In this document: positions 1 through 16,870 of the stretch, one piece after another
How the letters are laid out: each line of letters opens with the position of its first letter
How positions within the stretch are numbered: position 1 is the first letter of the stretch
From: a virus
DNA length: 26,904 nucleotides
Reading direction: 5' to 3' (one strand)
IMG/VR virus record: IMGVR_UViG_3300042881_001881
Coordinates: 1 to 26,904 of that record
The notes under the pieces: model-generated
The model's input: the letters and a program-made list of their open reading frames with translations, nothing else
Database searches by the model: none
Told to the model about the DNA's origin: nothing
Position numbers and translations under genes: made by a program

Positions 1-479
1 TACTTTATTCCATCAAGATGGTCAAGTTCATGTAGAAAACATCTTGCAGATATACCCTCAAGTCTTGTTTGATGTATCTTACCGTTTTCATCGGTAAATT
101 CAACTTCAATCCATGACGGTCGTTCAACATTCAAAAACAACCCAGGGAACGACAAGCAACCTTCTTTATCTTTTCCTTGTGGACCAAAAGCAAGAACTTT
201 TGGGTTCAAACAAACTAATTGAAACTCATCGGTACCCACCACAAACATACGCTCTGCAACACCACACTGATTCGCAGAAAGACCTAAACCGGAATATAGT
301 TTCATGGTCATCTTTAATCGTTTAGCCAAGGTGACTAATGCTGGCGCAGGAAAATTACCTGTATATTCAGGTATCTTCTTTCGTAGTAATGGATGATCTT
401 CACCAAAAACTGGTAGAGGATTAATTTTTTCTTGCTGAGTTAGACCAGCAGATGTATCAATAGTTAGAATTTCACTCAT
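1..479 (-). CDS. def: Peptide deformylase, C-terminus cut by window edge
   Basis: Removes the N-formyl group from nascent proteins; a metalloenzyme of the cytosol. All three family motifs can be read. GLGLSANQCG at residues 64-73 corresponds to the GxGxAAxQ motif. EGCLS at 106-110 supplies metal ligand Cys108. HELDH at 150-154 gives ligands His150 and His154 and catalytic Glu151. The ATG at 479 overlaps the gp46 stop by 4 bases (ATGA), so translation is probably coupled. The frame stays open to base 1, so about 159 residues are visible and the C-terminal end is missing. Phage deformylases are known auxiliary genes in marine T4-like phages. The family call is firm; whether it favours phage or host proteins cannot be judged here. 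Confidence 0.93.
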   Translation of the reverse strand, partial: MSEILTIDTSAGLTQQEKINPLPVFGEDHPLLRKKIPEYTGNFPAPALVTLAKRLKMTMKLYSGLGLSANQCGVAERMFVVGTDEFQLVCLNPKVLAFGPQGKDKEGCLSFPGLFLNVERPSWIEVEFTDENGKIHQTRLEGISARCFLHELDHLDGIK

Positions 480-2185
480 TTCACTATCCTTGAAAAGTTT
501 TTTACTTTCTCAAATTTAATTGTATTGGCAAACTTATCTTGCAGTATATCACCTTTGTGGCTAATAACAAATAGATTTACATCATCAAGTGAGTGTAAAA
601 TCTTCATCAACTCTTCTGTACCTGTTGTGTCTAATGAAGAATCAAACACTTCATCAAGTATCAATAGGTTGGTATTGGTAGAGTTTTTGAGTTTTGCTAT
701 TGCTCTCCATGTCAACATCAATGCCATATCAATTCGTTGTTTCTCACCTTCTGAAAAATTGTGGTAAGAAAAATCATCACGATGTCTGGACTTGATTGTT
801 TCTTTGAACGACTCATCAAGATTGAAGTTCACAAAGAAATCCATACTAGTCAAATACTTATTGATGAGTTTGTTGATCACGGGCAAATATTGTTTAATGA
901 TATTAGTTTTGATACCGCTATCTTTTAATAACGTAGAGGCAACATCAAAATATGCTTTCTCATCCAATAACTGTTTCAGCAACTCTTGTGCTTGTTTAAT
1001 TTCATTTTTAATTACACTTAGTTCATCATCATCAGAATCTTGTTGATTCACTCCCTGTAATTCTTTAATTTGTTTCTCAAGTTTCTCAATTGATTCATTC
1101 AAACCTTTGATACTTGTTTGTGTAGTGGCAAATAGAATACGAACGTTAGCCAGTTTTTTTTCTTCTAAACGAATTGAATTTAATATTGTTTCATGTTCGG
1201 AAATTTTTAATTGTAATTCTTTTAAACCCCCATCAAGTTCTTGTTCCTTTGATAGAATATCCCCAAGTTGTCCTTCTTTAAACTCCAAGGTAATGGCTTG
1301 CCTGCACGTTGGACAATCAGCATTGTGTTCATAGAAATGTTTATCTGATACAATTTTGGATATTTTGCTTTCAATTTGCGATTCAACTTTTCTAAACGCC
1401 GCAATCTTCCTCTCATTTTCAGGTGCTTTTGCCACGATGGCATCCAACGTGGTGATTTGTTTGACCAACAAGTCAATTTCATTTGATAGGGTGCCAATGG
1501 TTTCTCTACTACTTTGAATCTCACTCTCATATTCTTTTATCTTTGCTTCATTGTTTTGATTGAGTTTATCTTGGTGTTCTTTCTTCAACTCATATCGCTG
1601 ATTGAGTACGATAATTTCATTTTTTTGTGCAACGGTTACATCTTTGTTGATTGAAAGTCTTTCTTTTACAAGACTATTCATAGTGGAGAAGATTTGAATG
1701 TCCAACAAATCTTCAATGATTGCTCGGCGATCAGCAGCAGACAACTGCATGAACGGTGTAAAGGATGCTGAACCAAGAATAACGATCTGTGTGAAAGACT
1801 TGTAGTTTAGCTTGAGAATAAACTTCTCTAAGTAGTCTTGATAATCTCTTACAGCCGCATCTTGGTTCAGCAAAACTGAATCTTGATATATTTCAAAGAC
1901 GTTCGGTTTAATACCACGAACAATCTTATATTGTTTGTTGCCGATGTCAAACTCAATCTCAACAACACAATCTCTATTATTTATGGAATTAATAAGATTA
2001 GGTTTGTTGATACCACGAAAAGGTTTACCAAACAGAGCAAAGCACAATGCATCAAGCATCGTGGATTTACCAGAGCCGTTCGCACCAATCACTAATGTAT
2101 TGGCATTACTATTTAATTTTAATTCGGTAAAATAGTTGCCTGTGCTAAGTAAATTTTTCCAACGTAAGTTTTTAAATAATATCAT
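476..2185 (-). CDS. 46: gp46-like recombination endonuclease subunit (Rad50/SMC-like ATPase)
   Basis: ATPase subunit of the phage Mre11/Rad50-type complex that resects DNA ends for recombination-dependent replication. Walker A GANGSGKST is at residues 34-42. A long charged coiled-coil runs from about 170 to 410, broken by a zinc-hook CPTC at 291-294. The ABC signature FSEGEKQ is at 477-483 and Walker B LLILDE at 507-512. At 569 residues it is close to T4 gp46. The ATG overlaps the end of gp47 by 4 bases, which suggests coupled translation of the two subunits at a matched ratio. The peptide deformylase follows with another 4-base overlap. Nothing essential is missing. Confidence 0.96.
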   Translation of the reverse strand: MILFKNLRWKNLLSTGNYFTELKLNSNANTLVIGANGSGKSTMLDALCFALFGKPFRGINKPNLINSINNRDCVVEIEFDIGNKQYKIVRGIKPNVFEIYQDSVLLNQDAAVRDYQDYLEKFILKLNYKSFTQIVILGSASFTPFMQLSAADRRAIIEDLLDIQIFSTMNSLVKERLSINKDVTVAQKNEIIVLNQRYELKKEHQDKLNQNNEAKIKEYESEIQSSRETIGTLSNEIDLLVKQITTLDAIVAKAPENERKIAAFRKVESQIESKISKIVSDKHFYEHNADCPTCRQAITLEFKEGQLGDILSKEQELDGGLKELQLKISEHETILNSIRLEEKKLANVRILFATTQTSIKGLNESIEKLEKQIKELQGVNQQDSDDDELSVIKNEIKQAQELLKQLLDEKAYFDVASTLLKDSGIKTNIIKQYLPVINKLINKYLTSMDFFVNFNLDESFKETIKSRHRDDFSYHNFSEGEKQRIDMALMLTWRAIAKLKNSTNTNLLILDEVFDSSLDTTGTEELMKILHSLDDVNLFVISHKGDILQDKFANTIKFEKVKNFSRIVK

Positions 2186-3252
2186 TCAAGTTCGGTGTTT
2201 AATGCTTCAACATAAAGTTCACGCATAAGATTCTTTAGTTTATCATTTTCTACGTTCAATGTCAGGTTATCAATATACTTGGATAAAATTGTTACGGTAT
2301 CTTCTGCTTGATCAACTAACTCATCATCGGTAATAATTGATGTATCGGTGAAATCTTCTACGACTGATATATCCGCTGCACCTGCTTTGTAAAGACTATC
2401 AAGCACAAAATCAAATAAAAATGGATTAAGTTTGTTGACAACAACCACCTTGACATAACAGCCTTCATAGATTGAATAATCAAAAGAACGATAGCCTTCT
2501 GAAAAATGTTCTAGTTCATCATTGTAGTTCAACTTGTAAAACATTCTGTGTGGATTTTTGATGAACTCTTGTTCGCGGGTATGTGTATCAAAGATAACAA
2601 AGCCACGTGGATCATTATAATCTGCCCATGTCATTTCTGTAGGTGTGCCGACATAATAGATATGACCGTCATTTGAACGATGATGAAAGTGACCAGAAAG
2701 CACAACATCATACTTGTCAAACATTGACTTATCAATACCATCATGGCAAATTGTGCCACGATCCATTTCAAAACCTTTTATTTCAAAATGACCAAAAACA
2801 ATCTGTGATTTGGAATCTTTTATTCTTTGGTATATTTCTTCTTGGTTATCATCGCATATCCAAGGCACCATATCAATATCAATGTCGCCAAACTGCAATG
2901 TAGTAAAAGCATCCAATACAGTAACGTTATCATAACCTTCTAAAAGTAACTGTGAGGAGTTAACCTGAAGGGTGTTTCTGAACGATACATCATGGTTACC
3001 AAGGAACGTGATGAAATTGATGTTGTTCTCTGCAAGTTTATCAAAGAAATATTTACGACATAAATGTAGTGAATTGAAGTTAATAAACTTACGGCGGTCG
3101 AAAAGATCACCAAGTTGTACAACGGTTGTAACATTGTGATCCTTTAGATATGGAAAGAAGACGTTCTCGTAGAACTTCTTCAAGTATTTATGAAAATCTA
3201 AAGAGTCACCTCTCATACCGAAGTGAGTATCACCAAGCACACAAATTTTCAT
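2182..3252 (-). CDS. 47: gp47-like recombination endonuclease subunit (Mre11-like)
   Basis: Nuclease partner of gp46 in DNA end processing, a calcineurin-like metallophosphoesterase. The five metal-binding blocks are in order: D8-x-H10, GDLFDRR at 48-54, GNHD at 85-88, GHF at 154-156 and SGHFHHR at 186-192. At 356 residues it is close to T4 gp47 in size. The ATG at 3252 lies 6 bases past the upstream methyltransferase gene and has no recognisable Shine-Dalgarno sequence (the preceding bases are AATTAATATACC), so initiation may depend on re-initiation after that gene. It overlaps gp46 by 4 bases. Confidence 0.96.
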   Translation of the reverse strand: MKICVLGDTHFGMRGDSLDFHKYLKKFYENVFFPYLKDHNVTTVVQLGDLFDRRKFINFNSLHLCRKYFFDKLAENNINFITFLGNHDVSFRNTLQVNSSQLLLEGYDNVTVLDAFTTLQFGDIDIDMVPWICDDNQEEIYQRIKDSKSQIVFGHFEIKGFEMDRGTICHDGIDKSMFDKYDVVLSGHFHHRSNDGHIYYVGTPTEMTWADYNDPRGFVIFDTHTREQEFIKNPHRMFYKLNYNDELEHFSEGYRSFDYSIYEGCYVKVVVVNKLNPFLFDFVLDSLYKAGAADISVVEDFTDTSIITDDELVDQAEDTVTILSKYIDNLTLNVENDKLKNLMRELYVEALNTELE

Positions 3253-3258
3253 GGTATA

Positions 3259-3891
3259 TTAATTAGGATAAGGCGTTACTTCAAAGTCTGTCAACTTGTA
3301 TAAAGAATCTTTTTTAGAGTCAAATATTTTAACATATCCTAAACTATACATCAAGTTATCAAATTCACTTCTTGTGGTTCCGGTGGCGTAATGTTCAAAA
3401 GTATCTACCTCAGCCCAAACACATTTTGGTTTATAATTACCGATGTTCTGAAACACTTTTAATTCAGCACCTTCCACATCAATATGAATGAAATCGGGTA
3501 CAAGATTTAGTTTCTCACAAAAAGTTTCCAACCTAATTGATCTAACATCATATGGTTGTGCATAAACCTTTCCCTGTTCATCTAAAGGATTCAAACCGAA
3601 AATGCTACCAGAATCTAAATGCTGATGACCATACTGTGTAAGTGATTGTCTAAACTGTATTATACCATCAATGTGACACACCGCCGTATGAAAGTAATGT
3701 ATGCCAAAATCAATTGCTCTGTTTAGATTAACCGACAGTAATGCGTTGGAACATTCAAACGCATATACTTTTGCCTTTGGCATCATCATTTTTAGTTGAG
3801 CAGAGTCACGCATGTCCATACATCCAACATCAAAGAAAACGAAATCTTCATCAAAGTTTTCCTTAATCCAATTTAAGTTTAAGCTACTCAT
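3259..3891 (-). CDS. FkbM-family SAM-dependent methyltransferase
   Basis: Predicted O-methyltransferase of the FkbM family, which often acts on sugars or polyketide-type hydroxyls. The SAM-binding motif I region is FFDVGC at 19-24, followed by the acidic AFEC at 44-47. The family-typical block HIDVEGAE is at 136-143 and is followed by a strand ending CVWAEV near 157-162. The length (210 aa) suits a single-domain FkbM protein. It lies between gp55 and gp47, two core genes, and has a good ribosome site (AAGGAG) before its ATG. By context it may methylate the product of the upstream sugar genes, but that is inference; the substrate is unknown. Confidence 0.85.
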   Translation of the reverse strand: MSSLNLNWIKENFDEDFVFFDVGCMDMRDSAQLKMMMPKAKVYAFECSNALLSVNLNRAIDFGIHYFHTAVCHIDGIIQFRQSLTQYGHQHLDSGSIFGLNPLDEQGKVYAQPYDVRSIRLETFCEKLNLVPDFIHIDVEGAELKVFQNIGNYKPKCVWAEVDTFEHYATGTTRSEFDNLMYSLGYVKIFDSKKDSLYKLTDFEVTPYPN

Positions 3892-3905
3892 TATTTTCTC
3901 CTTGA

Positions 3906-4448
3906 TTATTCTTGTTCGTCTTCGTCAATAAATTGTTCTAGACCTTCTGACTTTTTCTTTTTCTTGTTTTTTTTATTTTCTTCAAAGTTATGTATGAACT
4001 CTGATATGTTATCATACAATTCAAACTGTTTCATGTTACCATTTTCATCTTCATACATTTCACCTTCGTCTAACAATCCAAACTGCTGTGTTGCTTTATA
4101 CTTCACATACAGTTGCTTCTTCTCACGCATAATTCTACGCAGAAAGGCATAGTAAATTATCTGTGTGAAGTAAGCAAACGGATTCTTTGACTTAGCAGGA
4201 TCAAAGTTACGAAAATACATCAGACAATTTTCTACACCATCTGATATCATTTCGTCACGATATGTGTATGAAATAAAGTTTGGCTTACGTGATAGGTGTT
4301 CCGCAATTTTTAAGAAACACTCACCAATATAATCAGGTATCTTTGGTTCTACCGTGTTATTTTTTTGTGCGTTTTCACAGTCTGTTCTATACTTTATGAG
4401 AGCAGCCAAAAAGTCTGCATTATTAACGTAATGATTTGATGTTGTCAT
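3906..4448 (-). CDS. 55: gp55-like late-transcription sigma factor
   Basis: Sigma-like factor that directs host RNA polymerase to the TATAAATA late promoters, coupled to the sliding clamp. T4 gp55 resemblance: the N-terminal YVNNADFLAALI corresponds to T4 YVNNKELLQAII. The central block has YRDEMISDGVENCL, then a NF.....KNPFAYFTQ stretch near 84-96, the sigma region 2 equivalent. The C-terminus LEQFIDEDEQE resembles the T4 clamp-binding tail (LDFLYEANDE). A lysine-rich linker with an A8 run precedes it. The start codon overlaps the stop of the upstream sugar gene by one base (TAATG), so this core regulator is translated within the accessory operon. Confidence 0.93.
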   Translation of the reverse strand: MTTSNHYVNNADFLAALIKYRTDCENAQKNNTVEPKIPDYIGECFLKIAEHLSRKPNFISYTYRDEMISDGVENCLMYFRNFDPAKSKNPFAYFTQIIYYAFLRRIMREKKQLYVKYKATQQFGLLDEGEMYEDENGNMKQFELYDNISEFIHNFEENKKNKKKKKSEGLEQFIDEDEQE

Positions 4449-5380
4449 TATACATTACCGTAAATATTATTTTTCAAGTATGCATATCCCTTGATGAGTT
4501 CTTCTACACCATCGTCTATTGTAAAGTATGGTACCCAACCTGTTGCTTCTAGTTTTTCGTTAGACACAATATAGTTGCGTTGATCTGGGTCTTTCTTGAT
4601 ATCTCCTTCTACAACTGTAAAAGTAGGAATATGTTTCTTAATAATGTCACAGAGTTCTAGTTTAGATACGTTTGCTGATGACAAACCTACATTGTAAATA
4701 TTACCTTTCATCTCTTCAAACTGATAGATAGAATGTAGAAATGCTTCGCATACGTCACGCACATGAATATAGTTACGCTTGAAATGTCCTTCAAAGATAA
4801 TTACATAACCATCATTGACTGCACGATAAACTAAATCATTGACTAACAAATCAGTTCTCATTCGTGGTGACATACCAAATACGGTAGCAAGTCTATAACT
4901 GATTGAGTTCTCACGTTGCATCAGCCGTTCTTCTACCGCAACTTTATCAATCGCATACTTAGAGATTGGTCGCAGTGGTGATTCTTCAGTGCAGAAATTG
5001 TTTTCATCACCTGTGCCATATGCAGAATTGGTCGTAGGCATGATGATGCGTTGTTCACTTGATACACTATTCAACATCCAAAACATTGCGTCTTTGTTTG
5101 TTGTGTCTGCACCAACAACATCTTTATTACACAGTGGCGCACCAACGAGTGCAGCAAGAGGTATAATTACATCCGCTTTCTTCAACAAAGGTGCCACATG
5201 ATGTGGATTACGAATGTCACCATTTACAATTGAAAATCTTTTGTTTTCACAAAGATGATTTAATCCGGTTTGCTTATACATGAAGTTGTCAATGACAGTC
5301 ACTTCATGATTCATCTGCAACAAATATTCAGTCAAAATGCAGCCAATGTAGCCAGCACCACCAGTTATCAATACATTCAT
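4448..5380 (-). CDS. NAD-dependent epimerase/dehydratase (extended SDR, NDP-sugar type)
   Basis: Extended short-chain dehydrogenase/reductase, probably acting on a nucleotide-linked sugar. The NAD-binding GGAGYIG is at residues 7-13. Asp57 in the NGDIRN block matches the conserved GD(L/I)RD region. A TTNSAYG segment at 116-122 holds the catalytic Ser/Thr, and the active-site pair is Y142-AID-K146. At 310 residues it is typical of GalE-like epimerases and sugar 4,6-dehydratases or 4-reductases; I cannot choose among these reactions by eye. It follows the DegT-like gene with a 1-base gap and overlaps gp55 by one base. Context favours reduction or epimerisation of the 4-keto sugar left by that neighbour. 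Confidence 0.88.
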   Translation of the reverse strand: MNVLITGGAGYIGCILTEYLLQMNHEVTVIDNFMYKQTGLNHLCENKRFSIVNGDIRNPHHVAPLLKKADVIIPLAALVGAPLCNKDVVGADTTNKDAMFWMLNSVSSEQRIIMPTTNSAYGTGDENNFCTEESPLRPISKYAIDKVAVEERLMQRENSISYRLATVFGMSPRMRTDLLVNDLVYRAVNDGYVIIFEGHFKRNYIHVRDVCEAFLHSIYQFEEMKGNIYNVGLSSANVSKLELCDIIKKHIPTFTVVEGDIKKDPDQRNYIVSNEKLEATGWVPYFTIDDGVEELIKGYAYLKNNIYGNV

Positions 5381-5381
5381 A

Positions 5382-6557
5382 TTACACCCTATTCAATACG
5401 TTTGTTATTTCTTCAATTGCAATCTTGCTTAATGTTGGATAGTTACCAATGTAGAACGAATAAAAGTGCATGTGATCGGTGTTTGTATATTTCTTGTAGT
5501 GATCTTCTGGCACAATATTCTTCAAATATGGTTGACGCAGTTGATTACCACCACCAGCAGAGCCACGACGAAACTCAATTTGTTCATCACGCATTTTACC
5601 CATCAGTCTTTCTACAAACTCTTTGTTTGCATACTCTGGCTGCAACACAATGTTAAAGGCATAGTTACTGCAACCAATCAATCTAAAGTCAACCTTATAT
5701 TTCTTCTGATCTAGTTTAGACAAAAAGTAAAATAGATTCTCATTTCGTAGTCTAACATTTTCATCTAAATGTTTCAACTGATTTTGCCCAAGTATACCGC
5801 CAATTTCATTGTTACGCATGTTGTATGCTGCATAGGCAAAGATAAAGTCTGAGTTCAACTCTGGATATTCTGCCTTATATTTTTCAGACATTGTTTCGGA
5901 TGCACACTCACGAACCATACCGTGTGAACGAAGCATACGAACTGTATGATAAACTTCAGGATCATCTGTGCATACCATGCCACCCTCAATTGTAGACATA
6001 TGATGTGCAAAGTAGAAAGAGAAATTAGACATCCAACCATAACTACCAAGTAACTTTCCATTGTGTGTTGCACCATGTGATTCACACACATCTTCAATCA
6101 GAGGTATGTTACGATGACGGAGAACTTCTAATACTCTGTCAGATAGGCAATCAAAACCTTGTGCGTAAGTAATAAACACCGCACGTGTTTTATCTGTAAT
6201 CGCATTTAGTATGCCATACTCACTCATACCGAGTGTGTCAAGATCAATGTCAACAAATACAGGTGTGAAACCGCATTGAAGAATGGATGCAATGTCAGAT
6301 ACCCACGTGAATGGTGGCACAATGACTTCACCACCTTCTGGATGTTTGATCTTCAACATTGTCATTGACAATAGATTTGCTGATGCACCCGAATTAACAA
6401 ACACAGAATACTTTACACCAAGCCATTTGCTCCATGCTTCTTCAAAAGCACGACACTCTGGTCCATTTGTAAGTTTAGGATTATCTTTTTTAAGGTGTTC
6501 TATTACCAAATCTAAGTCTTCTCTAGTAATATTATCCGACATCAAAGGATATTTCAT
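5382..6557 (-). CDS. DegT/AHBA-family PLP enzyme, ColD/RfbH-like sugar 3-dehydratase
   Basis: Fold-type I PLP enzyme of the DegT/DnrJ/EryC1 sugar family. The PLP-contact region NSGASAN is at 55-61 and the pyridine-nitrogen aspartate is D156 (IEDVCESHGA). The block that normally holds the Schiff-base lysine reads FYFAHHMSTIEGG at 181-193, with His185 where aminotransferases have Lys. Lys-to-His replacement here marks the 3-dehydratases ColD and RfbH (E1), which remove the C3 hydroxyl of a 4-keto-6-deoxysugar. The length (391 aa) is close to ColD (about 388 aa). RfbH is longer and carries an iron-sulfur cluster, and I see no matching cysteine set. A plain aminotransferase is unlikely without the lysine. 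It overlaps the kinase gene by one base. Confidence 0.85.
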   Translation of the reverse strand: MKYPLMSDNITREDLDLVIEHLKKDNPKLTNGPECRAFEEAWSKWLGVKYSVFVNSGASANLLSMTMLKIKHPEGGEVIVPPFTWVSDIASILQCGFTPVFVDIDLDTLGMSEYGILNAITDKTRAVFITYAQGFDCLSDRVLEVLRHRNIPLIEDVCESHGATHNGKLLGSYGWMSNFSFYFAHHMSTIEGGMVCTDDPEVYHTVRMLRSHGMVRECASETMSEKYKAEYPELNSDFIFAYAAYNMRNNEIGGILGQNQLKHLDENVRLRNENLFYFLSKLDQKKYKVDFRLIGCSNYAFNIVLQPEYANKEFVERLMGKMRDEQIEFRRGSAGGGNQLRQPYLKNIVPEDHYKKYTNTDHMHFYSFYIGNYPTLSKIAIEEITNVLNRV

Positions 6558-7543
6558 TATGACTCCAATATAATTTGGCTGCCTTCATAATCAAACTTAA
6601 AAGGCACCCACACATTAATTTCAGGTATTGCTTGTTTAATTTTTTCGTGTGCATCAGGTGGTGCAAGAAACATAAAGAAGCCACCGCCGCCCGCACCCAT
6701 CAATTTGCCGCCATATGCACCAGCATTGATTGCTTTGTTGTATATTGTATCTATGTAATCGTTTGTAACAGTATCCGTAAGTTGGCGTTTGCGGCTCCAT
6801 TGATACTTCAACAATTCACCTATGTCTTTTATTTTACCATGACTTTCAAAAATATGCAATGCTGTATCGGTAATCGTTACAATTTCTTCAAGTAATTTTT
6901 TGGACTTGCCTTCTTTAATGGCATCAATCTGTTGTTTGGCATGAATACTTGAGAATCTATCAATGCCAGAAAAACCTAACATGATGTGTTCTTCTAAATC
7001 AAGAGTGTAATCATCTTTGATTCTTAAATCACGAACATTGATATTTTCACCAGACAATTCAATGACACGAATGCCGCCATATGCGGCCATGATTTGATCT
7101 TGAACTCCAACAGATTCACCAATACAATTTTGTTCTATGTCAATGGCATCGGTTGCAAGTCCATATGGTGTGTATACTTTACCCAGACTTGTTGTTATGG
7201 CATGAATCAGTCCAACAGTAAATGAAGAAGATGATCCAATACCAGAACGAGCAGGTAAATCGCCATCGTGACTAATAGAAATTCCATTAGGTATATCATA
7301 GTATTTCAAACACTCCCTTACAGAAGGATGGTCTATTTGCGAAATATCTGATACGCTTTCAATCTTAGAGTAGATAACTCTATTTACATAATCAAAATAA
7401 GGCGGCAACTTCTTTAAACTTATATAGCAGTAATGCGCCATTGCAGCCGATATTACTTTTGACGGCCTAGTTTTATACCATGCTGGATAATCTGTGCCAC
7501 CACCAAACAAAGAAAGACGATAAGGTGTTTTAGATATAATCAT
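6557..7543 (-). CDS. GHMP-family sugar kinase (HddA/heptose-7-phosphate kinase-like)
   Basis: ATP-dependent small-molecule kinase of the GHMP superfamily. The N-terminal motif PYRLSLFGGGTDYP is at 7-20. The phosphate-binding loop is PARSGIGSSSS at 97-107. GVQDQIMAAYGG at 146-157 contains the likely catalytic Asp149. Motif 3, KLMGAGGGGFF, is at 280-290. The opening motif and the 328-residue length match the D-glycero-D-manno-heptose 7-phosphate kinase/fucokinase-like branch. No heptose isomerase, phosphatase or nucleotidyltransferase is next to it, so the heptose assignment is only by similarity. The start overlaps the upstream beta-like gene by 4 bases (ATGA). Confidence 0.87.
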   Translation of the reverse strand: MIISKTPYRLSLFGGGTDYPAWYKTRPSKVISAAMAHYCYISLKKLPPYFDYVNRVIYSKIESVSDISQIDHPSVRECLKYYDIPNGISISHDGDLPARSGIGSSSSFTVGLIHAITTSLGKVYTPYGLATDAIDIEQNCIGESVGVQDQIMAAYGGIRVIELSGENINVRDLRIKDDYTLDLEEHIMLGFSGIDRFSSIHAKQQIDAIKEGKSKKLLEEIVTITDTALHIFESHGKIKDIGELLKYQWSRKRQLTDTVTNDYIDTIYNKAINAGAYGGKLMGAGGGGFFMFLAPPDAHEKIKQAIPEINVWVPFKFDYEGSQIILES

Positions 7544-8070
7544 TTTTCGTTATAGTAGTCACCATATTCAACAAGCAGAGTGGCTTTACCATCTGTTCTG
7601 AGATATGCATTACAATATGCATTGTAGATATCTCTTGGTTCGTCAAGCCTAACTATGTCAATATTTGGACACATCATTCTGTATGCATCCGTATAATCAC
7701 CAACGTGTTGGTGTTGCGGATGAAGTGGTCTCTCGGAGCCAATGCTTGTACGAATAATCATTCTTGGTCTGTAGTCAGACATCATCGTGATTTTATCTAT
7801 GTGATTTACTAATTGATTTGTTGCACATATCAAAAAATTCCATCGCGGAAAAATACTCACTGGTATGTAACCAGAAAGAGCAAGACCTAATGTCATACCC
7901 ATCTGTGTATCTTCAAACACAGGCATCTCAATCAACTTTTCTTTAGGAACATCTTTCAATGTGTTTGACATTGCTGTACCAGCATATTCAACTGCTTGAC
8001 CTATAAAGACAACACGTGGGTCTTTTGCAAGCATGTCCATTGATGCTTTTAATTCGTCAAAGTATTTCAA
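7540..8070 (-). CDS. Thiamine-diphosphate enzyme, pyrimidine-binding (E1 beta-like) subunit, short form
   Basis: Resembles the pyrimidine-binding domain of transketolase/E1-beta proteins. Block MPVFEDTQMGM...LALSGYIPV near 49-71 aligns with the family block that holds the catalytic glutamate, here Glu53. At 176 residues it is about half a normal E1 beta, because the C-terminal transketolase domain is absent. The start is TTG at 8070, chosen because it overlaps the upstream stop (TTGA) and has GAGGG about 8 bases before it; the first ATG is 30 bases further in. It should pair with the E1 alpha-like product encoded just upstream to form one active site. Reaction unknown; two-carbon transfer or decarboxylation of a keto acid are both possible. 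Confidence 0.8.
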   Translation of the reverse strand: MKYFDELKASMDMLAKDPRVVFIGQAVEYAGTAMSNTLKDVPKEKLIEMPVFEDTQMGMTLGLALSGYIPVSIFPRWNFLICATNQLVNHIDKITMMSDYRPRMIIRTSIGSERPLHPQHQHVGDYTDAYRMMCPNIDIVRLDEPRDIYNAYCNAYLRTDGKATLLVEYGDYYNEK

Positions 8071-8666
8071 AACTGTACCCTCACTCCCGCACCAGCATGT
8101 GGATATTTTGTTTCATATTGATAGTAGTAAATGTATTCATTTTCAACATTTGTATATGTTGATTCTTCTACGCCCCATGTTTTTACAGTATCAGTGCAAA
8201 CAGATTTACCATTGTCTTCTACGATAAACTTGATGGGTAGTTCATGTTGCATGGAGTATTTGAAATTTTCCATAAAGATGCCCGACTCTGCTGTCATATC
8301 ACCGACAAAGCAATAAACCTTTGTGTCAATCTTTTTTCTCTTCATTGCCATTGCAGTGCCAACAGCAATAGGAATATTACCACCAACGATTGCTGTTGAA
8401 TAGATGTTGTATTGTGGATAGCAAAGTGAAATAGATTTGCCTTCTAGAATATCTTTTTCAAGCACATCTGGTGGCACACCTTTAAGTAGGCATTGATAGT
8501 GTGAACGCCATGAACAAAACACCCAATCTATTGAACGAATGTTTTTGAATATTTTGATCATCTCATATTCATTACCATAATATAGATGCACAGGCGCACG
8601 AATACGACCATTGTTGAAGTGATCTGCTATCTTATCTTCAAATGCTCTAAGTTCTTCTTTAGTCAC
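8067..8666 (-). CDS. Thiamine-diphosphate enzyme, E1 alpha-like subunit, short form
   Basis: Resembles the pyrophosphate-binding domain of E1-alpha/transketolase enzymes. The ThDP/Mg2+ motif starts at GD 122-123 and closes with EDNGKS at 150-155. SWRSHYQCLLKG at 52-63 matches the E1-alpha pattern in which a histidine (His56) follows an aromatic/basic residue. At 199 residues it is much shorter than the usual 320-360. It starts with GTG at 8666, supported by AAGGA upstream inside the radical SAM gene, which it overlaps by 8 bases. It overlaps the beta-like gene by 4. Similar domain-sized pairs exist, for example the two-subunit sulfopyruvate decarboxylases. No lipoyl partner (E2) is present, which argues against an oxidative dehydrogenase complex. 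Confidence 0.82.
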   Translation of the reverse strand: MTKEELRAFEDKIADHFNNGRIRAPVHLYYGNEYEMIKIFKNIRSIDWVFCSWRSHYQCLLKGVPPDVLEKDILEGKSISLCYPQYNIYSTAIVGGNIPIAVGTAMAMKRKKIDTKVYCFVGDMTAESGIFMENFKYSMQHELPIKFIVEDNGKSVCTDTVKTWGVEESTYTNVENEYIYYYQYETKYPHAGAGVRVQF

Positions 8667-10164
8667 CTAGTATTTTCCTTTTCAATCTAATCTTGGACAT
8701 TTGCTCAATGTTCTGTCTTGATTGTAAACCAAATTTGGTTTCAACAAGATTCAAGAATGGTTCATGTGAAAAGTATTTGTGCCATGCTTCATCACGAAAC
8801 TTCAATACTTCTGCACCAGATAAATTTTTTGTTCGTAGTGGTTTACAATCGTAAGATAAAAACGCAAACTCATCAAAAGTTTGTGGTAATTCCCAACCAT
8901 TGTTTACTGCTTCCATATACAATGGACTGCCAGGCAATGCCATTGCTGCGTAGAAGTTTGCATGTTCACAATTCAACTCTAATGCAAGGTCAAGTGTCTC
9001 TTGCATTGTTTCCATTGTATCTTCTGGAAAACCAAACATATAGTTACCAAGCACATTGATGTCAGCATCTTTAATATCTTGCACAACTTCACGAATGTCA
9101 ACTTGTTTGAAACGACCTTTGTCAATTTCTAAACGAACTTGTGGATTACCTGCTTCAATGCCTAGTGCAAGCCAATTAACACCCGCTTTCTTAAACAAAT
9201 CTAGCTGATCTTTACGAACAGAATCTACACGTGCATATGCCCAAAAATTGAACTTGATACCACGATCAACAAGACCCTGTAGGATTGGCACATAATATTT
9301 TTTGTTGAGAAAGAACATCTCATCGGTCAAACGAACTGTGCGAACACCTCTCTCCCAAAGATACTCAAACTCTTTGAGCATCAACTCTGGTGACCAAAAA
9401 CGCATACCACGTGAGTCTGCTGATACAACATTTTGTTTATACGATGTTCGGTTCACAATGTTAATCATGCAGAAGTTACAACCAAAGGAACAACCTAACG
9501 ATGTGGAGATTGCAGCAAATGGTGTGCGACCTTCATCAAGAAAATTTGAATGCCAATAATGTGCGCGATACTTATTAAAATTTATTAAATCCCATGCATA
9601 ACCAGGCATCACACGGTCCATGTCTTCTGTTTTTACAAGTTCTCCTGGTGCACCTGTTGCCGCAAAGCCGTGTTTTTTATAAACAAGACCGCGAACTTTA
9701 TCTAAATTATCTTTGTAGTTTGTTTGAAGTAGGTCTAACAGACCATACACACCTTCATTGATAAACACAAAGTCAACATAAGGTAAACCAATCACATCAT
9801 ACGGCAATGCAGACGCATGTGAGCCAATAAAAACAATCTTGATTGATGGTCGTATAAGTTTAAGTTGAGTTGCTAGTCTTGATGCACCAATCATCATTGT
9901 GGTGCCTGAGTTTGGATTTTGTCCGTAAAGAACAAATACTGCTATGTCTGTGTTGGTACCAGAAACACGATGTGCGGCATGTTCAAGATCGGGTGATGGA
10001 TCCGCATCAAAATCTAAAATGCAAGGATCATATCCCTCTTTACGAACGGCTTGTGCAAGCAGCAACGCCCACGTAGGTGGTTCAATTGCAGAATATTTTT
10101 CTGATAAGTCTTGATATGCTTGTTTTGCACTACTTGGTATAACGAATGTCACCACTTTTGACAT
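8659..10164 (-). CDS. B12-binding-domain radical SAM protein
   Basis: Two-domain enzyme. The N-terminal Rossmann-like region (about 5-150) looks like the cobalamin-binding domain of class B radical SAM proteins, including FIGSHASALP at 112-121. The radical SAM core begins with C225-SFG-C229-NF-C232, the canonical CxxxCxxC that binds the 4Fe-4S cluster. GIEAGN and FGFPEDT blocks follow, both typical of this group. Such enzymes methylate unactivated carbons or do other radical chemistry; C-methylation of an aminoglycoside sugar is a known example. As first gene of the sugar cluster it may modify the sugar, but the substrate is unknown. It would rely on host cobalamin. The ATG at 10164 has a TAGGA site upstream. 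Confidence 0.9.
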   Translation of the reverse strand: MSKVVTFVIPSSAKQAYQDLSEKYSAIEPPTWALLLAQAVRKEGYDPCILDFDADPSPDLEHAAHRVSGTNTDIAVFVLYGQNPNSGTTMMIGASRLATQLKLIRPSIKIVFIGSHASALPYDVIGLPYVDFVFINEGVYGLLDLLQTNYKDNLDKVRGLVYKKHGFAATGAPGELVKTEDMDRVMPGYAWDLINFNKYRAHYWHSNFLDEGRTPFAAISTSLGCSFGCNFCMINIVNRTSYKQNVVSADSRGMRFWSPELMLKEFEYLWERGVRTVRLTDEMFFLNKKYYVPILQGLVDRGIKFNFWAYARVDSVRKDQLDLFKKAGVNWLALGIEAGNPQVRLEIDKGRFKQVDIREVVQDIKDADINVLGNYMFGFPEDTMETMQETLDLALELNCEHANFYAAMALPGSPLYMEAVNNGWELPQTFDEFAFLSYDCKPLRTKNLSGAEVLKFRDEAWHKYFSHEPFLNLVETKFGLQSRQNIEQMSKIRLKRKILGD

Positions 10165-10178
10165 AACAAAAATTCCTA

Positions 10179-10589
10179 TTAGTGTAGTTTCTTATTTCTC
10201 ACTTCTTTTATTTGTTCAACAATTTCTTCCATCACATCCTCTTCAATTTCTTTTTCTTCGTTTTCTTCTAATAGGTCTTCAATCAATTTATCAGAATCTA
10301 CCATCTCTTCTAGTGTTCTCTCAACCAGTTTGTCGTAATAACGAATCATAGATTCTTTTGGTTCAACGACAGTCACAATGTCTGAATAATAAATCAATGC
10401 AGAATTTTCTTTAATCAATTCAACGGGAAGCCATGGCATCATCATCATCATGGTTTGACCTGTGGGTAAACGACGAAAAACAATTCGCATGGGATCATTG
10501 ATTTGTATTTGATCTGAGTTCTCATCCTCAAACATAGAAGCCATGATATCTTCACCAGACTGCATTCTTATAAGTTTTACGTTATGCAT
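10179..10589 (-). CDS. Conserved-looking phage protein of unknown function, acidic C-terminus
   Basis: 136-residue protein that I cannot assign. The first about 85 residues are predicted beta-rich (VKLIRMQSGEDIMASMF, then PMRIVFRRL, then VVEP) and loosely recall a small Sm-like barrel; that is a weak impression only. The last about 50 residues are strongly charged and helical, with EEMVDSDKLIEDLLEENEEKE. A run of five methionines (GQTMMMMMPWLP, residues 44-55) comes from five ATG codons at 10437-10451. The start overlaps the end of uvsW by 8 bases, so it is probably coexpressed with it. The next gene begins 14 bases after its stop. Confidence 0.75.
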   Translation of the reverse strand: MHNVKLIRMQSGEDIMASMFEDENSDQIQINDPMRIVFRRLPTGQTMMMMMPWLPVELIKENSALIYYSDIVTVVEPKESMIRYYDKLVERTLEEMVDSDKLIEDLLEENEEKEIEEDVMEEIVEQIKEVRNKKLH

Positions 10590-12063
10590 TCTTGACCTCT
10601 ATATTGTAGAATTTGTATTTAAATTTTTCCTCATCATAAATGGTAACACGATCTTGCAGGTGTTGCAACGTATAATTAACATGTTTACCAATTCTAAAAT
10701 CGTCTGCTATGTCGTAGAGAACCGCTTCAGTTTTGTTGTCACCTATACGAAGCCCTCTACCGATTGACTGTAAGTTTCGCACTCTTGATTTAGATGGTGA
10801 TGCAAAAATAACATTGTGAAGATTACGTATATTAATGCCGGTAGAAAAGGTGCCGTATGAAGCAACAATGATGGCATTGTTTTCTTTCTCAGTAATAGCA
10901 CGAACTTTTTCACGAACATCTACGTCTGTGCCACCGTAAACAAAAAACACATGTCGATTGGTAGCCTTCTCTTCAATCATTTTGTGTAGATTCTTGCCGT
11001 GTTTCTCTACAAGATTGAAAAGTATAAGTGAGTTACCCTCTAGTGACAATGTAAGGTTGCGAATGAATTCGTTTCTTGCTCTACTACTTACTATGTAGTC
11101 TATCTCAGATTGATAATCCCACCCACGTGACAGTTTACAAATCTCTTCAGAGTATTTTAATACCAAACATTTGATACGAAAGTCTGCTAGTTGTTTGTTC
11201 TCAATCAGTTTTGCAGTAGTTGTTGATTGATACAAGGGACCAAACAAACCTTCTAGTACAAGTCGGTGAGTTTGTGTACCATCAATAGTACCTGTGCAAC
11301 CAATACGGTATGATGCATTCTTCAAACCAGTCATGATAGTGGTCAAAGACTTTGCTTTAAACTGGTGTGCTTCATCACCTAATACAAAATCAAACTGTTC
11401 AAAGTATTCAGGAGGATTCTTGTAGATAGATTGCCATGTAGTAATTGTCAGAAACTTATCTGTGTGTTTCTCTTTACCTGAATACTGTCGGTGACAATAT
11501 GTGTCTGCATCATAGCCATAAGATTTAAAATCGGAATACATTTGTTCAACAAGTGAAGTTGTCGGTACAATCAGTAAACCTTTTTTGTAATCTTTGTATT
11601 GTAGATATCTCAGTATCAGATATTGTATCAGAGACTTACCTGAACCAGTTGGTGATAACAACAACATTCTTTTTCTTCTTACGGCAGTAATGAATGACTT
11701 GTATTGATATTCCCTTATGCCTTCTGTTATAATGGTTTTGTCCAGATTAAGTTGCTCTAGAAACTCATTAGCCTCCAATGCTGAAAAACTCTCTGCATTA
11801 CTTACAGTAGCATCAACCTCAAATTTGTAGTTTCTCTCTTCACAAAACTTCTCAATGTAAGGAACAAGACCATGATAGATAGTATATGTTCGTAGGTCAG
11901 CAAGTCTTATCTTACCATCCCAAAGACGATTCTTATACGCAGGCATAAACTGATAACCTGGCACATAGAAAGTAAAGTAGTCTGCAAGTTCTTGTGCAAC
12001 ACTTTTTTCACACTCAAACTTGATAAACGCTTCATCTTGTTTATGTAATATTAAATCAGACAC
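10582..12063 (-). CDS. uvsW: UvsW-like recombination helicase (SF2)
   Basis: T4 UvsW unwinds R-loops and remodels branched DNA, shifting the phage from origin-based to recombination-based replication. Counting from the GTG chosen here, Walker A SPTGSGKS is at 137-144 and the DEAH box (GDEAHQF) at 230-233. A VASYGTFSTGIN block and motif VI QSIGRGLRIG are near the C-terminus. The N-terminal ECEKS...ELADYFTF aligns with T4 DCEES...ELRDFFSF. The frame is open upstream to a TTG at 12087, but GTG at 12063 gives an N-terminus matching T4 and overlaps the uvsY stop by 8 bases, so I prefer it; neither start has a strong Shine-Dalgarno. Confidence 0.94.
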   Translation of the reverse strand: MSDLILHKQDEAFIKFECEKSVAQELADYFTFYVPGYQFMPAYKNRLWDGKIRLADLRTYTIYHGLVPYIEKFCEERNYKFEVDATVSNAESFSALEANEFLEQLNLDKTIITEGIREYQYKSFITAVRRKRMLLLSPTGSGKSLIQYLILRYLQYKDYKKGLLIVPTTSLVEQMYSDFKSYGYDADTYCHRQYSGKEKHTDKFLTITTWQSIYKNPPEYFEQFDFVLGDEAHQFKAKSLTTIMTGLKNASYRIGCTGTIDGTQTHRLVLEGLFGPLYQSTTTAKLIENKQLADFRIKCLVLKYSEEICKLSRGWDYQSEIDYIVSSRARNEFIRNLTLSLEGNSLILFNLVEKHGKNLHKMIEEKATNRHVFFVYGGTDVDVREKVRAITEKENNAIIVASYGTFSTGINIRNLHNVIFASPSKSRVRNLQSIGRGLRIGDNKTEAVLYDIADDFRIGKHVNYTLQHLQDRVTIYDEEKFKYKFYNIEVKNA

Positions 12064-12490
12064 CTTGTATGAATTTTTCCCAATCAATAAAGGAACGAAG
12101 TTCCCATGTTCTGTTGTTCAACTCTTTGATTATGGCTTGACAGACCTCAACGATTTCTTCATGCAATAACTTCTTTGCAAGATACTTGTTGATGTCTTCA
12201 TCCGCTTCTAGATATGTATTGATCTCGGATTTGAGTGTAAAAGGAAATGGTTCCCATCCACGTTTGGATAATTCATCTTCATCAAGTCTACCTGTATAAT
12301 ATTCCCATTTGAGTTTACGCCACTTGTTGTAGTTGAATTCTGCTTCTTTAGCCAATAACCGATGTGACGAAAGAATGTTCAAATACTTTGAGTGTAGTTT
12401 AGGAATATCAATCAGTGCTTTACCTGGTTCAGTGCGGTCTATATTAGAATCCGCAGCCCACATTTGTAATACTTCGTCAAGTTTGCTCAT
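12056..12490 (-). CDS. uvsY: UvsY-like recombination mediator
   Basis: Loads the UvsX recombinase onto gp32-coated single-stranded DNA. The 144-residue product is all helical by appearance. It contains KLKWEYYTGRLDEDELSKRGWEPF, comparable with T4 ARLDYYSGRGDGDEFSMDRYE, followed by a block like T4 VLSADKDVLK (TYLEADEDINK). Its position directly before uvsW matches other T4-like phages. The ribosome site AGGAGGT is the strongest in the window and lies in an inverted repeat that could partly hide it. Confidence 0.92.
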   Translation of the reverse strand: MSKLDEVLQMWAADSNIDRTEPGKALIDIPKLHSKYLNILSSHRLLAKEAEFNYNKWRKLKWEYYTGRLDEDELSKRGWEPFPFTLKSEINTYLEADEDINKYLAKKLLHEEIVEVCQAIIKELNNRTWELRSFIDWEKFIQGV

Positions 12491-12493
12491 ATT

Positions 12494-12513
12494 ATACCTC
12501 CTATTAGGAGTAT
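12494..12513 (-). promoter_or_regulatory. Inverted repeat covering the uvsY ribosome binding site
   Basis: The gene strand reads ATACTCCTAATAGGAGGTAT just before the uvsY ATG at 12490. CUCC can pair with GGAG across a UAAUA loop, and AUA with UAU beyond a bulged G, giving about seven pairs that include the Shine-Dalgarno bases. The stem is short, so it may only tune initiation. Function is inferred. Confidence 0.4.
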
Positions 12514-12520
12514 ATCACAT

Positions 12521-13060
12521 TTAAAATAATTTGTCTACGTTATAATAGGTAAATCTGAATGTAGCGTCTGCTGTAATGATGGTATCTGGTGTGTCGGTAG
12601 ATGACACAACGAAACCAGAAAGAGAAATGGGAAATAAATCTTTGAAGTTGAAACGGTAATAAGGTTTGTTTGATGCAGAAAGAATCGTTACTGCACCATC
12701 ACAATACTGTGGTAAATTTGATGCTGCTGCGGTGGTAAACTTGTTTAAATTTGCCAAGTTTTGATATTCTTCATACTCGGTAGGGAATGTCATAGCACGA
12801 AGCCAATCATGTATTTCTAACCATGACAACATCTCAGCATCAACAATAAAAGTAACATTCAATACATCATAGATTGCTTTTTCACCAGGTGCATACAATT
12901 CAACGAATGGGTTTTGCACAGGAATTTCTGATGTTGAAAGACCAGGCAAAGAAATCGTTTGACAAAAGTATTGCAGATTTGGTGTACGAGCCAAGTTCAG
13001 CGTAAACTTGTTAGGCTGTAACGAATTTGGATTTGTAGGGTTGCGTGTAAGAACTGTCAT
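12521..13060 (-). CDS. Tail-tube-fold structural protein (gp19-like paralog; gp3 position in cyanophages)
   Basis: 179-residue protein resembling T4-type tail tube proteins. NKFTLNLARTPNLQYFCQTISLPGL near the start parallels RPNLFEVSMPFPGF...CKTAQLPGS in gp19 of this window. A middle block with VLNVTFIVDAE...IHDWLRAMTFP parallels LKFVGNRTFADWTVTIIN...FERWMNGI, and both end in aromatic beta strands. It sits between gp23 and uvsY, where related phages carry a tail completion gene often labelled gp3. It could cap or start the tube rather than form it (gp48/gp54 share the fold but are about twice as long). No Shine-Dalgarno precedes the ATG, and the late promoter ends only 5 bases upstream. Confidence 0.78.
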   Translation of the reverse strand: MTVLTRNPTNPNSLQPNKFTLNLARTPNLQYFCQTISLPGLSTSEIPVQNPFVELYAPGEKAIYDVLNVTFIVDAEMLSWLEIHDWLRAMTFPTEYEEYQNLANLNKFTTAAASNLPQYCDGAVTILSASNKPYYRFNFKDLFPISLSGFVVSSTDTPDTIITADATFRFTYYNVDKLF

Positions 13061-13065
13061 ATGTT

Positions 13066-13073
13066 TATTTATA
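13066..13073 (-). promoter_or_regulatory. T4-type late promoter, exact TATAAATA
   Basis: The gene strand reads TATAAATA, the consensus recognised by gp55-directed polymerase, just after the gp23 terminator. The downstream ATG at 13060 begins 5 bases after the box, so the expected start of transcription falls on or next to the start codon. Confidence 0.75.
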
Positions 13074-13077
13074 AGAT

Positions 13078-13107
13078 AAAAAAAGAGGCATCCGAAGATG
13101 CCTCTTT
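13078..13107 (-). terminator. Intrinsic terminator after gp23 with UUCG loop
   Basis: On the gene strand AAAGAGGCATC pairs fully with GATGCCTCTTT around a TTCG loop closed by C-G, the very stable cUUCGg tetraloop, followed by a run of seven T (partly inside the stem). It ends the major capsid transcript. A small extra hairpin (CCAC/GTGG) lies between the gp23 stop and this stem. Confidence 0.93.
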
Positions 13108-13134
13108 AAATCCCACTCTGCGGTGGTTATTTAA

Positions 13135-14478: not shown

Positions 14479-14499
14479 TATTGTATCTCCTTTTGTTAT

Positions 14500-14507
14500 T
14501 ATTTAAA
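14500..14507 (-). promoter_or_regulatory. Probable late promoter for gp23, TTTAAATA
   Basis: Gene strand TTTAAATA differs from the late consensus at one base. It overlaps the gp22 stop and stands 21 bases before the gp23 ATG, with AAGGAG in between, a layout like that of the exact box before gp22. Confidence 0.55.
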
Positions 14508-15822: not shown

Positions 15823-15844
15823 TGAATATCTCCTTATGATTTCT

Positions 15845-15852
15845 TATTTATA
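15845..15852 (-). promoter_or_regulatory. T4-type late promoter before gp22, exact TATAAATA
   Basis: Exact TATAAATA on the gene strand in the 34-base gap between gp21 and gp22, 22 bases before the ATG, with AAGGAG in the leader. Spacing fits a T4 late promoter. Confidence 0.85.
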
Positions 15853-15856
15853 AATT

Positions 15857-16869: not shown

Positions 16870-16870
16870 T

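Follow-up and report, generated by a model that had tools for sequence, protein, structure and literature searches.

A six-gene sugar cassette with an exchangeable thiamine-diphosphate enzyme beside gp55 in T4-like phages

The DNA analysed here (IMG/VR record IMGVR_UViG_3300042881_001881, positions 1 to 26,904; hereafter the window) is a 26.9-kb virus record of a T4-like phage, in which PHROGs and Pfam recognise head, tail and terminase genes together with UvsW, UvsY, SbcC/SbcD-like genes – presumably in the gp46/47 position – and gp55. Our subject is a cassette of six genes on its minus strand (4448–10164), encoding in order a B12-binding radical S-adenosylmethionine enzyme (rSAM), two short subunits of a thiamine-diphosphate (ThDP) enzyme (E1a and E1b), a GHMP sugar kinase, a DegT-family dehydratase and a short-chain dehydrogenase/reductase (SDR), and followed by gp55. 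On its other side stands a small conserved gene downstream of UvsW (Table 1). Successive genes overlap by 8, 4, 4 and 1 bases, a 1-base gap (5381) separates DegT from SDR, and SDR overlaps gp55 by one base (TAATG). All six products match Pfam families above the curated cut-offs (Radical_SAM with B12-binding, E1_dh, Transket_pyr, GHMP N and C, DegT and Epimerase). An original prediction, made from the sequence alone, had described this order, its motifs and spacing and the overlap with gp55, and open reading frame (ORF) positions, Pfam and PHROGs bear the description out.

Conservation and exchange at the phage site

Related loci were chosen by similarity to E1a, rSAM or gp55, and frequencies among them are those of this sample rather than of populations. 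The relatives kept comprise 80 of 117 bacterial loci (from a genome scan with the E1a alignment), 80 of 146 viral loci by rSAM, 80 of 173 viral loci by E1a and 80 of at least 600 by gp55. Some loci come from one contig or from near-identical contigs; counts of viral sites are of distinct gp55 starts, trees leave out near-copies, and counts of residue motifs include duplicates and, for DegT, SDR and rSAM, are limited to relatives over a minimum identity. In bacteria the presence of a gene was scored by tblastn (33% identity over 35% of the query, with no identity floor for E1a and E1b), because ORF calling in the high-GC loci chose antisense frames.

The six genes are a genuine shared cassette. 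The original prediction had proposed asking whether they co-occur elsewhere, and they do: all six are found in 47 of the 80 bacterial loci – with five in 21, four in 3, three in 8 and two in 1, several of these loci lying on short contigs – and, in the same order, in 19 of 95 viral loci. Gene by gene, the bacterial loci contain E1a in 80 cases, E1b in 79, GHMP in 71, DegT in 70, rSAM in 65 and SDR in 60, and ten other window proteins, run as further queries, gave no entry in the tblastn listing for these 80 loci. The hosts named in the record titles include Nitrospira, Burkholderiales, Verrucomicrobia, Pelagibacteraceae, SAR116 and cyanobacteria; in one sampled class E1a is scarce (2 of 274 genomes, one being the centre genome itself). 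The six phage genes are under purifying selection, with ratios of nonsynonymous to synonymous change (dN/dS) against four relatives of 0.03–0.13, next to 0.03–0.05 for gp55 and 0.04–0.07 for UvsW.

Phage relatives repeatedly exchange the ThDP pair in place. Both flanks are visible in 95 distinct viral loci. In 63 of these the site lacks every gene tested for (a gap of 71–686 bases in 61, about 3 kb of other DNA in two), the 19 just mentioned carry the window's six genes before gp55, and in 10 a split transketolase – in L054 a Transketolase_N protein of 258 aa and a protein of 304 aa with Pyr and C domains – replaces E1a and E1b. Two loci (L227 and L244) hold full-length E1-alpha and E1-beta with a different radical SAM enzyme, a PfpI-like protein, a cupin and a HAD protein, and one (L225) holds a different sugar set with an RfbH-type DegT. 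Kinase, DegT, SDR and gp55 are retained across the exchange in related phages. Within the 95 loci, gp55 identity to the window's never exceeds 84% at empty sites and ranges over 75–94% at filled ones.

Two side observations concern the same site. In L225 (3325–6918) and L223 (1–2084) it carries the RfbH-type DegT, with Fe–S cysteines, alongside an SDR, an unassigned protein and a 2-oxoglutarate/Fe(II) oxygenase-like protein, and it may be a hot-spot for sugar cassettes. In L080, one of the ten transketolase-type loci, the GHMP gene is broken into two parts that overlap and lie in different frames (L080:10120–11102).

The exchange was traced on a UvsW tree of 51 phages, labelled by type: 28 with the short E1 pair (mini E1) and 23 with transketolase, the two full-E1 loci standing outside such trees. 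The type changes 11 times; well-supported branches make at least six of these changes unavoidable, and placing all transketolase phages in one clade is rejected (approximately unbiased test, p-AU 4e-55). L096 and L228, which differ in type, show when compared in 250-base steps mostly 0.89–0.98 DNA identity up to rSAM and about 0.75–0.82 within it; their ThDP genes are unrelated, and identity returns to 0.90–0.98 where GHMP begins and stays so into the gp46-like gene. Separate bacterial origins of E1a in T4-like phages were considered and set aside: a quick tree, in which the identical L005 stood in for the window's E1a, split the phage sequences, but a topology holding the 14 rows together was not rejected (p-AU 0.857).

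Genes that follow the exchange

Gene trees, scored by the number of changes of type label and compared with shuffled labels, show which genes change with the ThDP pair. For 53 loci, rSAM alignment columns 200–500 show 2 changes against a shuffled 17.6, none of 500 shuffles being as low; columns 1–150 show 7, and UvsW 11 against a shuffled mean of 17.5. In the 25 loci that have both GHMP and DegT, each of these genes shows 7 changes (about 8 when shuffled, no signal) and UvsW 8 against 8.1 expected, likewise without signal, the C-terminal part of rSAM showing 2; in 18 loci SDR shows 5 changes (5.3 shuffled) and the C-terminal part of rSAM 1. Divided into blocks in 33 loci, with about 10.5 changes expected, rSAM gives 5, 6, 3, 1 and 2, GHMP 7, 10 and 10, and UvsW 8, 9 and 8.

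The C-terminal part of rSAM belongs to the exchanged unit with the ThDP genes: rSAM follows the ThDP type over some 300 codons, whereas GHMP, equally near on the other side, has a weak signal in its first 110 codons. L096 and L084, both of mini E1 type, share 96% in rSAM against 84% in UvsW and 62% in GHMP; L096 and L228 share 79% in rSAM against 95–98% in UvsW, GHMP, DegT, SDR and gp55. The asymmetry between rSAM and GHMP suggests that each of the two enzymes, radical SAM and ThDP, acts on what the other makes.

SAR11 bacteria show the same alternation of mini E1 and transketolase as the phages. A match to the transketolase C-half at E 1e-40 is present in 6 of 197 Pelagibacteraceae genomes, and four of the six were inspected. 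Of these, L310 has the order GHMP–DegT–rSAM–TktN–TktC–cupin–SDR–(HddC–GmhB) and L311 the identical order but no cupin; in L146, from that family too, the order is E1a–E1b–GHMP–DegT–rSAM–cupin–SDR–(HddC–GmhB). All three sets follow the same aminotransferase gene. L312 has only rSAM–TktN–TktC–cupin, with weaker kinase and fusion matches apart from it, and L313 a more distant set. In a further SAR11 locus, L173 (5489–10004), a second radical SAM enzyme, a PfpI-like protein, a cupin and a full-length E1 pair lie directly before the mini E1 set; a module like this one replaces the head of the cassette in phages L227 and L244.

The enzymes and their probable heptose context

Two of the retained genes, SDR and the kinase, resemble those for enzymes of heptose metabolism. 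The SDR aligns over 308 residues with the solved structures 6vo6 and 6vo8, which we take to be Cj1427 (a literature search found no paper joining codes and name), and the next solved SDR reaches 70 bits. It carries TNSAYG – TNSxYG in 125 of 129 relatives – at the site where 4,6-dehydratases carry an acidic motif. Assignment as a 4,6-dehydratase was ruled out by this motif together with the scores of 355 against 70 bits, and the cassette, its SDR being Cj1427-like, is without the 4,6-dehydratase of a yersiniose pathway. The best-scoring model for the kinase is NF049969 (HddA), and two of its four best solved matches are named heptose kinases. DegT has ColD as its best solved relative (179 bits, against 128 for the Fe–S enzyme E1); its AHH motif, with His for the pyridoxal phosphate (PLP) Lys, is kept in all 155 relatives at least 36% identical, and none of the 155 has the [2Fe–2S] cysteine pattern of RfbH/E1 (RfbH model 192 bits, cut-off 423).

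In Campylobacter jejuni, Cj1427 is reported to oxidise GDP-heptose at C4 and yield L-2-hydroxyglutarate, and together with a PLP-dependent C3-dehydratase to form GDP-D-glycero-3-deoxy-4-keto-heptose in vitro (PMC10680097; the dehydratase is described in PMC10440746). The phage SDR would likewise oxidise GDP-heptose with alpha-ketoglutarate to give L-2-hydroxyglutarate, and a recurrent neighbour, an L-2-hydroxyglutarate oxidase, would recycle this by-product. By tblastn 9 of the 80 bacterial loci contain the oxidase (one copy just 38% identical), by clustering 10; it adjoins the SDR directly in four related Verrucomicrobia loci (L160, L161, L162 and L168) and occurs in five viral loci of a second phage lineage, and the two copies that were scored both pass the curated cut-off (540 and 500 against 299 bits).

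Other neighbours point the same way. An HddC-like nucleotidyltransferase is present in 36 of the 80 bacterial loci, an HddC–GmhB fusion in 6 and a GDP-fucose-synthase-like SDR in 31; clustering of neighbour genes gave a GmhA-like cluster in 11 loci and a GmhB-like cluster in 7, and the one member of each that was scored passes its cut-off (212 against 209 bits for a GmhA-like protein from the viral locus L206; 181 against 178 for a GmhB-like one). Three cupins are nearest to the solved GDP-4-keto-heptose epimerase group, some entries of which carry a rhamnose name, scoring 147, 129 and 119 bits against 66, 98 and 102 for the best match outside it. The original prediction of a nucleotide-sugar pathway is supported as such, and so is its His-type DegT 3-dehydratase; its 3,6-dideoxy or 6-deoxy hexose product is not. 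A 6-deoxy sugar is not to be expected, since the SDR lacks the acidic motif and only 8 of the 80 bacterial loci contain an SDR with a 4,6-dehydratase-like motif; D-glycero-manno-heptose is the sugar indicated by the SDR, the kinase and the neighbouring genes.

The two ThDP subunits hold only the PP and Pyr domains, without the transketolase C-terminal domain (E1b matches Transket_pyr only). The best profile match of E1a is the alpha subunit of pyruvate dehydrogenase (PDH) E1; a GD..EDN-type cofactor motif is kept in 180 of 181 E1a relatives, and the catalytic Glu of E1b (E53) is invariant in 10 of 10 aligned rows, its motif recurring in 176 of 176 relatives. These are the domains and residues of a two-subunit alpha-ketoacid dehydrogenase-like (alphaKADH2) ThDP enzyme. 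A review describes three kinds of ThDP enzyme that branch ketosugars – YerE-like decarboxylases, two-subunit E1-like enzymes using pyruvate, and proposed split-gene transketolases moving hydroxyacetyl (PMC12247030) – with E1-like examples in PMC4753412, PMC10338323 and PMC4802897. The pair resembles a kind proposed to branch ketosugars, in keeping with the ThDP enzyme first predicted. In the cyanophages S-SM2 and P-TIM68 the E1a and E1b halves are fused in one gene; the cyanophage proteins annotated as 'transketolase central region' (S-SM2 and P-TIM68; L002:14983–16191 and L003:15049–16194) are fused E1a–E1b homologues of about 40% and 30% identity.

The viral contig L204 carries two mini E1 sets (59–4192 and 6474–16999). 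One has the mini E1 pair with an RfbH-like 3-dehydratase and an RmlB-like 4,6-dehydratase, both somewhat under their cut-offs, and a further SDR, and no heptose kinase directly adjoins it; the other has mini E1, a Cj1427-like SDR, rSAM, kinase, a small nucleotidyltransferase-like gene, a ColD-type DegT, a cupin and the L-2-hydroxyglutarate oxidase. Because one pair adjoins RfbH-like and RmlB-like genes, mini E1 appears to go with 3-deoxy-4-keto sugars of more than one kind. It is for this reason, and because the two commonest exchange partners resemble the E1-like and split-transketolase kinds, that we read the cassette as a constant core with a branch head.

The radical SAM enzyme is of the B12 type, as first proposed: it has both domains, and CxxxCxxC is kept in 193 of 193 relatives. 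It reaches the cut-off of no listed NCBIfam model, and no curated family fits it. Its nearest solved sequence is AprD4 (6fd2), a radical diol dehydratase with paromamine, followed by methylases; the nearest folds are AprD4 and the methylases MgmA, TsrM and CysS, for a model of mean pLDDT 70.6 with residues 187–255 below 50. By sequence and by the folds of this model, rSAM is about equally near a dehydratase and methylases. In the second phage lineage, seven other loci (L030:12788–13835, L217:12794–13823 and similar) have adenine phosphoribosyltransferase and S-adenosylhomocysteine/methylthioadenosine-nucleosidase-like genes after the cassette, the nucleosidase under its cut-offs, and these perhaps recycle by-products of the radical SAM enzyme.

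The window itself, as originally noted, has no recognised activation or transfer gene: neither a nucleotidyltransferase nor a glycosyltransferase is named among the 30 proteins scanned (29 against PHROGs, 18 against Pfam), several of which have no PHROGs match, small ORFs being outside the scan. The original prediction had also proposed looking for missing steps elsewhere in the genome, and relatives were searched for them. Ten long virus contigs – nine that carry the cassette, drawn from both phage lineages, and L256, whose phage has the site empty – gave a family 2 glycosyltransferase (GT2) match in nine, eight of them above cut-off, and a GmhA-like SIS protein, under the GmhA cut-offs, in one; HddC was found in none of the ten. 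The 133-kb contig of L026, with the window's cassette type, has a GmhA-like gene (L299) and, side by side (L300), an HldE-C-like nucleotidyltransferase, a GT2 gene and a cupin nearest the heptose epimerases. At least this one close relative has its own likely activation and transfer genes, outside the region that corresponds to the window.

Table 1. Positions of the cassette genes and their neighbours in the window
Feature	Coordinates	Strand	Evidence
rSAM, B12-binding radical SAM enzyme, 501 aa, first cassette gene	8659..10164	-	PF04055 71 bits, PF02310 36.2 bits; CxxxCxxC
E1a, ThDP PP-domain subunit (mini E1-alpha), 199 aa, GTG start	8067..8666	-	PF00676 53.7 bits
E1b, ThDP Pyr-domain subunit (mini E1-beta), 176 aa, TTG start	7540..8070	-	PF02779 37.1 bits
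GHMP sugar kinase, HddA-like (heptose-7-phosphate kinase)	6557..7543	-	PF00288/PF08544; NF049969
DegT-family PLP/PMP C3-dehydratase, ColD-type	5382..6557	-	PF01041 216 bits
SDR, putative Cj1427-type GDP-heptose C4-dehydrogenase	4448..5380	-	6vo6/6vo8 355 bits
gp55 late sigma factor, downstream flank	3906..4448	-	phrog_234 'late sigma transcription factor' 208 bits
FkbM-domain methyltransferase just past gp55	3259..3891	-	PF05050 39.2 bits (cut-off 22.7); phrog_8156
Small conserved phage gene, upstream flank	10179..10589	-	phrog_527 57 bits; adjoins UvsW in many relatives
UvsW helicase, upstream flank, basis of phage tree	10582..12087	-	UvsW_N and helicase domains

Among the flanking features, the FkbM-domain gene sits between gp55 and the SbcD-like gene and is detected in few relatives (L054, L076 and L084); its product might O-methylate a sugar, and its membership of the cassette is uncertain. 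The T4-type late promoter TATAAATA has three matches in the window and none within 4448–10164, and 22 of 100 shuffles gave at least three. Two tail-tube-like proteins (PHROG 45) are encoded at 12521–13060 and 19895–20440, and the gene for one of the two has those for UvsY and the major head protein on its sides; a ferritin/Dps-like protein (PF00210, 75 bits) is encoded at 23846–24280, between the large and small terminase genes.

A proposed pathway, its rivals and its meaning

We propose that the cassette combines a constant nucleoside diphosphate (NDP)-heptose core with an exchangeable ThDP/rSAM branch head, leading to a branched nine-carbon sugar of the host surface. The proposal builds on the observed gene set, with its co-occurrence, conservation, selection, exchange and co-segregation; what we infer are the substrates and products at every step, the C4 position, the donor and the purpose that the sugar serves. 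The HddA-type kinase would help to make NDP-activated D-glycero-manno-heptose, which the SDR would oxidise at C4 in the manner of Cj1427, its NADH being reoxidised by alpha-ketoglutarate. The ColD-type DegT would then remove the C3 hydroxyl, giving GDP-3-deoxy-4-keto-heptose, and the two-subunit ThDP enzyme would add a two-carbon unit to the C4 ketone: acetyl from pyruvate in the case of mini E1 and, by analogy, hydroxyacetyl in that of the split transketolase. The B12-type radical SAM enzyme, matched to the ThDP enzyme, would make a further change, and glycosyltransferases of the host or encoded elsewhere by the phage would place the sugar on a host surface glycan. Recombination that swaps the ThDP unit and the C-terminal part of rSAM would change the sugar and keep the rest.

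We put the probability of this explanation as a whole at roughly 0.55, slightly better than even, and several observations weigh against it. The linkage of rSAM and ThDP genes could be partly physical, as they adjoin, and GHMP on the far side has a weak signal as well in its first 110 codons (7 changes, 10 of 500 shuffles as low), gone further on. Both a full-length E1 pair and the mini E1 pair are present in the loci L171 and L173, and the two pairs might perform different steps. Scores also fall short of several curated families: the kinase misses the HddA equivalog cut-off (NF049969, 143 against 600 bits), the tested HddC-like neighbour lies under its own (166 against 300), and mini E1, without the C domain of ordinary E1-beta, is not a full-length pair, the PDH E1 models being far under cut-off. 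The cassette of the window has no ketoreductase for an acetyl branch; HddC, as noted, is missing from the ten long contigs; and since the nucleotidyltransferase of L300 is HldE-C-like, the nucleotide need not be GDP.

Of the alternatives, the best placed, though in our view unlikely, is that the ThDP pair is transketolase-like and supplies precursor, making sedoheptulose 7-phosphate for the heptose kinase, with an unbranched 3-deoxy-heptose as end product. The GDP-heptose pathway does begin at sedoheptulose 7-phosphate (PMC10680097), and the split version is a Transketolase_N protein paired with one of Pyr and C domains. However, the ThDP type co-segregates with the C-terminal part of rSAM and hardly with the kinase, mini E1 is closer to PDH E1 than to transketolase, and in L204 one mini E1 pair stands within a 6-deoxyhexose-type set, away from any directly adjoining heptose kinase. 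We give a similarly small chance, a shade lower, to decoration of the virion or of phage DNA rather than the host surface. Some phages do glycosylate their own DNA or virions, and the GT2 matches on nine of the ten long contigs fit such a use; in Nitrospira (L106), on the other hand, the neighbours of the set include an ABC-2 permease and an ATPase whose closest matches, under equivalog cut-offs in both cases, are teichoic-acid and galactan exporters, and the set looks there like one for surface glycans.

Less probable still is the sugar first predicted, a 3,6-dideoxy-4-keto-hexose, branched or C-methylated. ColD and RfbH are relatives of DegT, L204 joins mini E1 to RfbH-like and RmlB-like genes, and the eight bacterial loci whose SDR has a 4,6-dehydratase-like motif speak for it and against a heptose; the SDR of the cassette is nevertheless Cj1427-like rather than a 4,6-dehydratase, and heptose genes are common partners in bacteria. 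That the cassette is non-functional filler kept for headful packaging, as has been allowed for cyanophage lipopolysaccharide (LPS) clusters (PMC3037559), is very improbable, given dN/dS values near those of gp55 and UvsW in all six genes, catalytic motifs preserved in nearly all relatives and exchanges in place that leave the frames open.

The branched-heptose proposal brings together features of several known systems. With GDP-heptose modification in C. jejuni (HddA, GmhA, GmhB, HddC, Cj1427 and the C3-dehydratase; PMC10680097, PMC10440746) it shares the kind of SDR, an HddA-like kinase and a ColD-type C3-dehydratase, and in the bacterial loci HddC-like, GmhA-like and 4-keto-heptose-epimerase-like partners. 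There, however, 3-deoxy-4-keto-D-glycero-heptose was obtained in vitro with enzymes from mixed serotypes, whereas SDR and DegT are adjacent genes in the cassette, and the ThDP pair and B12 radical SAM lie outside the enzymes named in the abstract (PMC10680097). Yersiniose synthesis by YerE offers a ketosugar, C3-deoxygenation and ThDP-dependent two-carbon transfer, a logic that the L204 set with RfbH-like and RmlB-like genes follows; branching in avilamycin, paulomycin and everninomicin offers a two-subunit PDH-E1-like enzyme (PMC12247030, PMC4753412, PMC4802897, PMC10338323). From both, the cassette differs in its shorter subunits without C domain, its heptose rather than hexose or pentose context, its radical SAM partner, its phage location and its exchange with transketolase. 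The split-gene transketolases proposed for miharamycin and amipurimycin likewise occupy the branching slot of a sugar pathway (PMC12247030), but the transketolase here stands in for a pair of E1 type, the cassettes being similar in other respects. Cyanophage and pelagimyophage LPS clusters also place sugar genes in T4-like phages, with the fused E1a/E1b homologue in S-SM2 and P-TIM68 (PMC3037559, PMC7029224); those clusters are large and variable, whereas the cassette is compact, with six genes at a fixed site before gp55 and exchange of a module.

We found no phage cassette of this kind described in the open-access literature, which is not proof of its absence from print. Every kind of enzyme here is known on its own; the literature searched showed neither this grouping nor the shortened E1 pair, nor the radical SAM enzyme as a partner, nor, most notably, a head that is exchanged again and again, with its SAR11 alternatives. 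A broader view is more tentative and, we think, rather doubtful in its full extent: that phages and some SAR11 bacteria keep a constant NDP-heptose core with swappable branch heads of pyruvate or transketolase type, and that the phages use it to re-coat the host with a variant nine-carbon glycan, for example excluding competing phages.

Sugar genes of phages are often catalogued without a pathway, and the natural exchange described here amounts to a genetic experiment that reveals which genes go together, the radical SAM enzyme with the ThDP enzyme, and which take no part in the change. It yields a concrete chain of reactions to a putative branched heptose, one that would join the heptose chemistry of C. 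jejuni to the branching chemistries of yersiniose and avilamycin, and it suggests a role for the short E1-like proteins and the B12 radical SAM family of Nitrospira, Burkholderiales, Verrucomicrobia, SAR11 and cyanobacteria. For the phages themselves, switching the branch of a glycan is a possible strategy.

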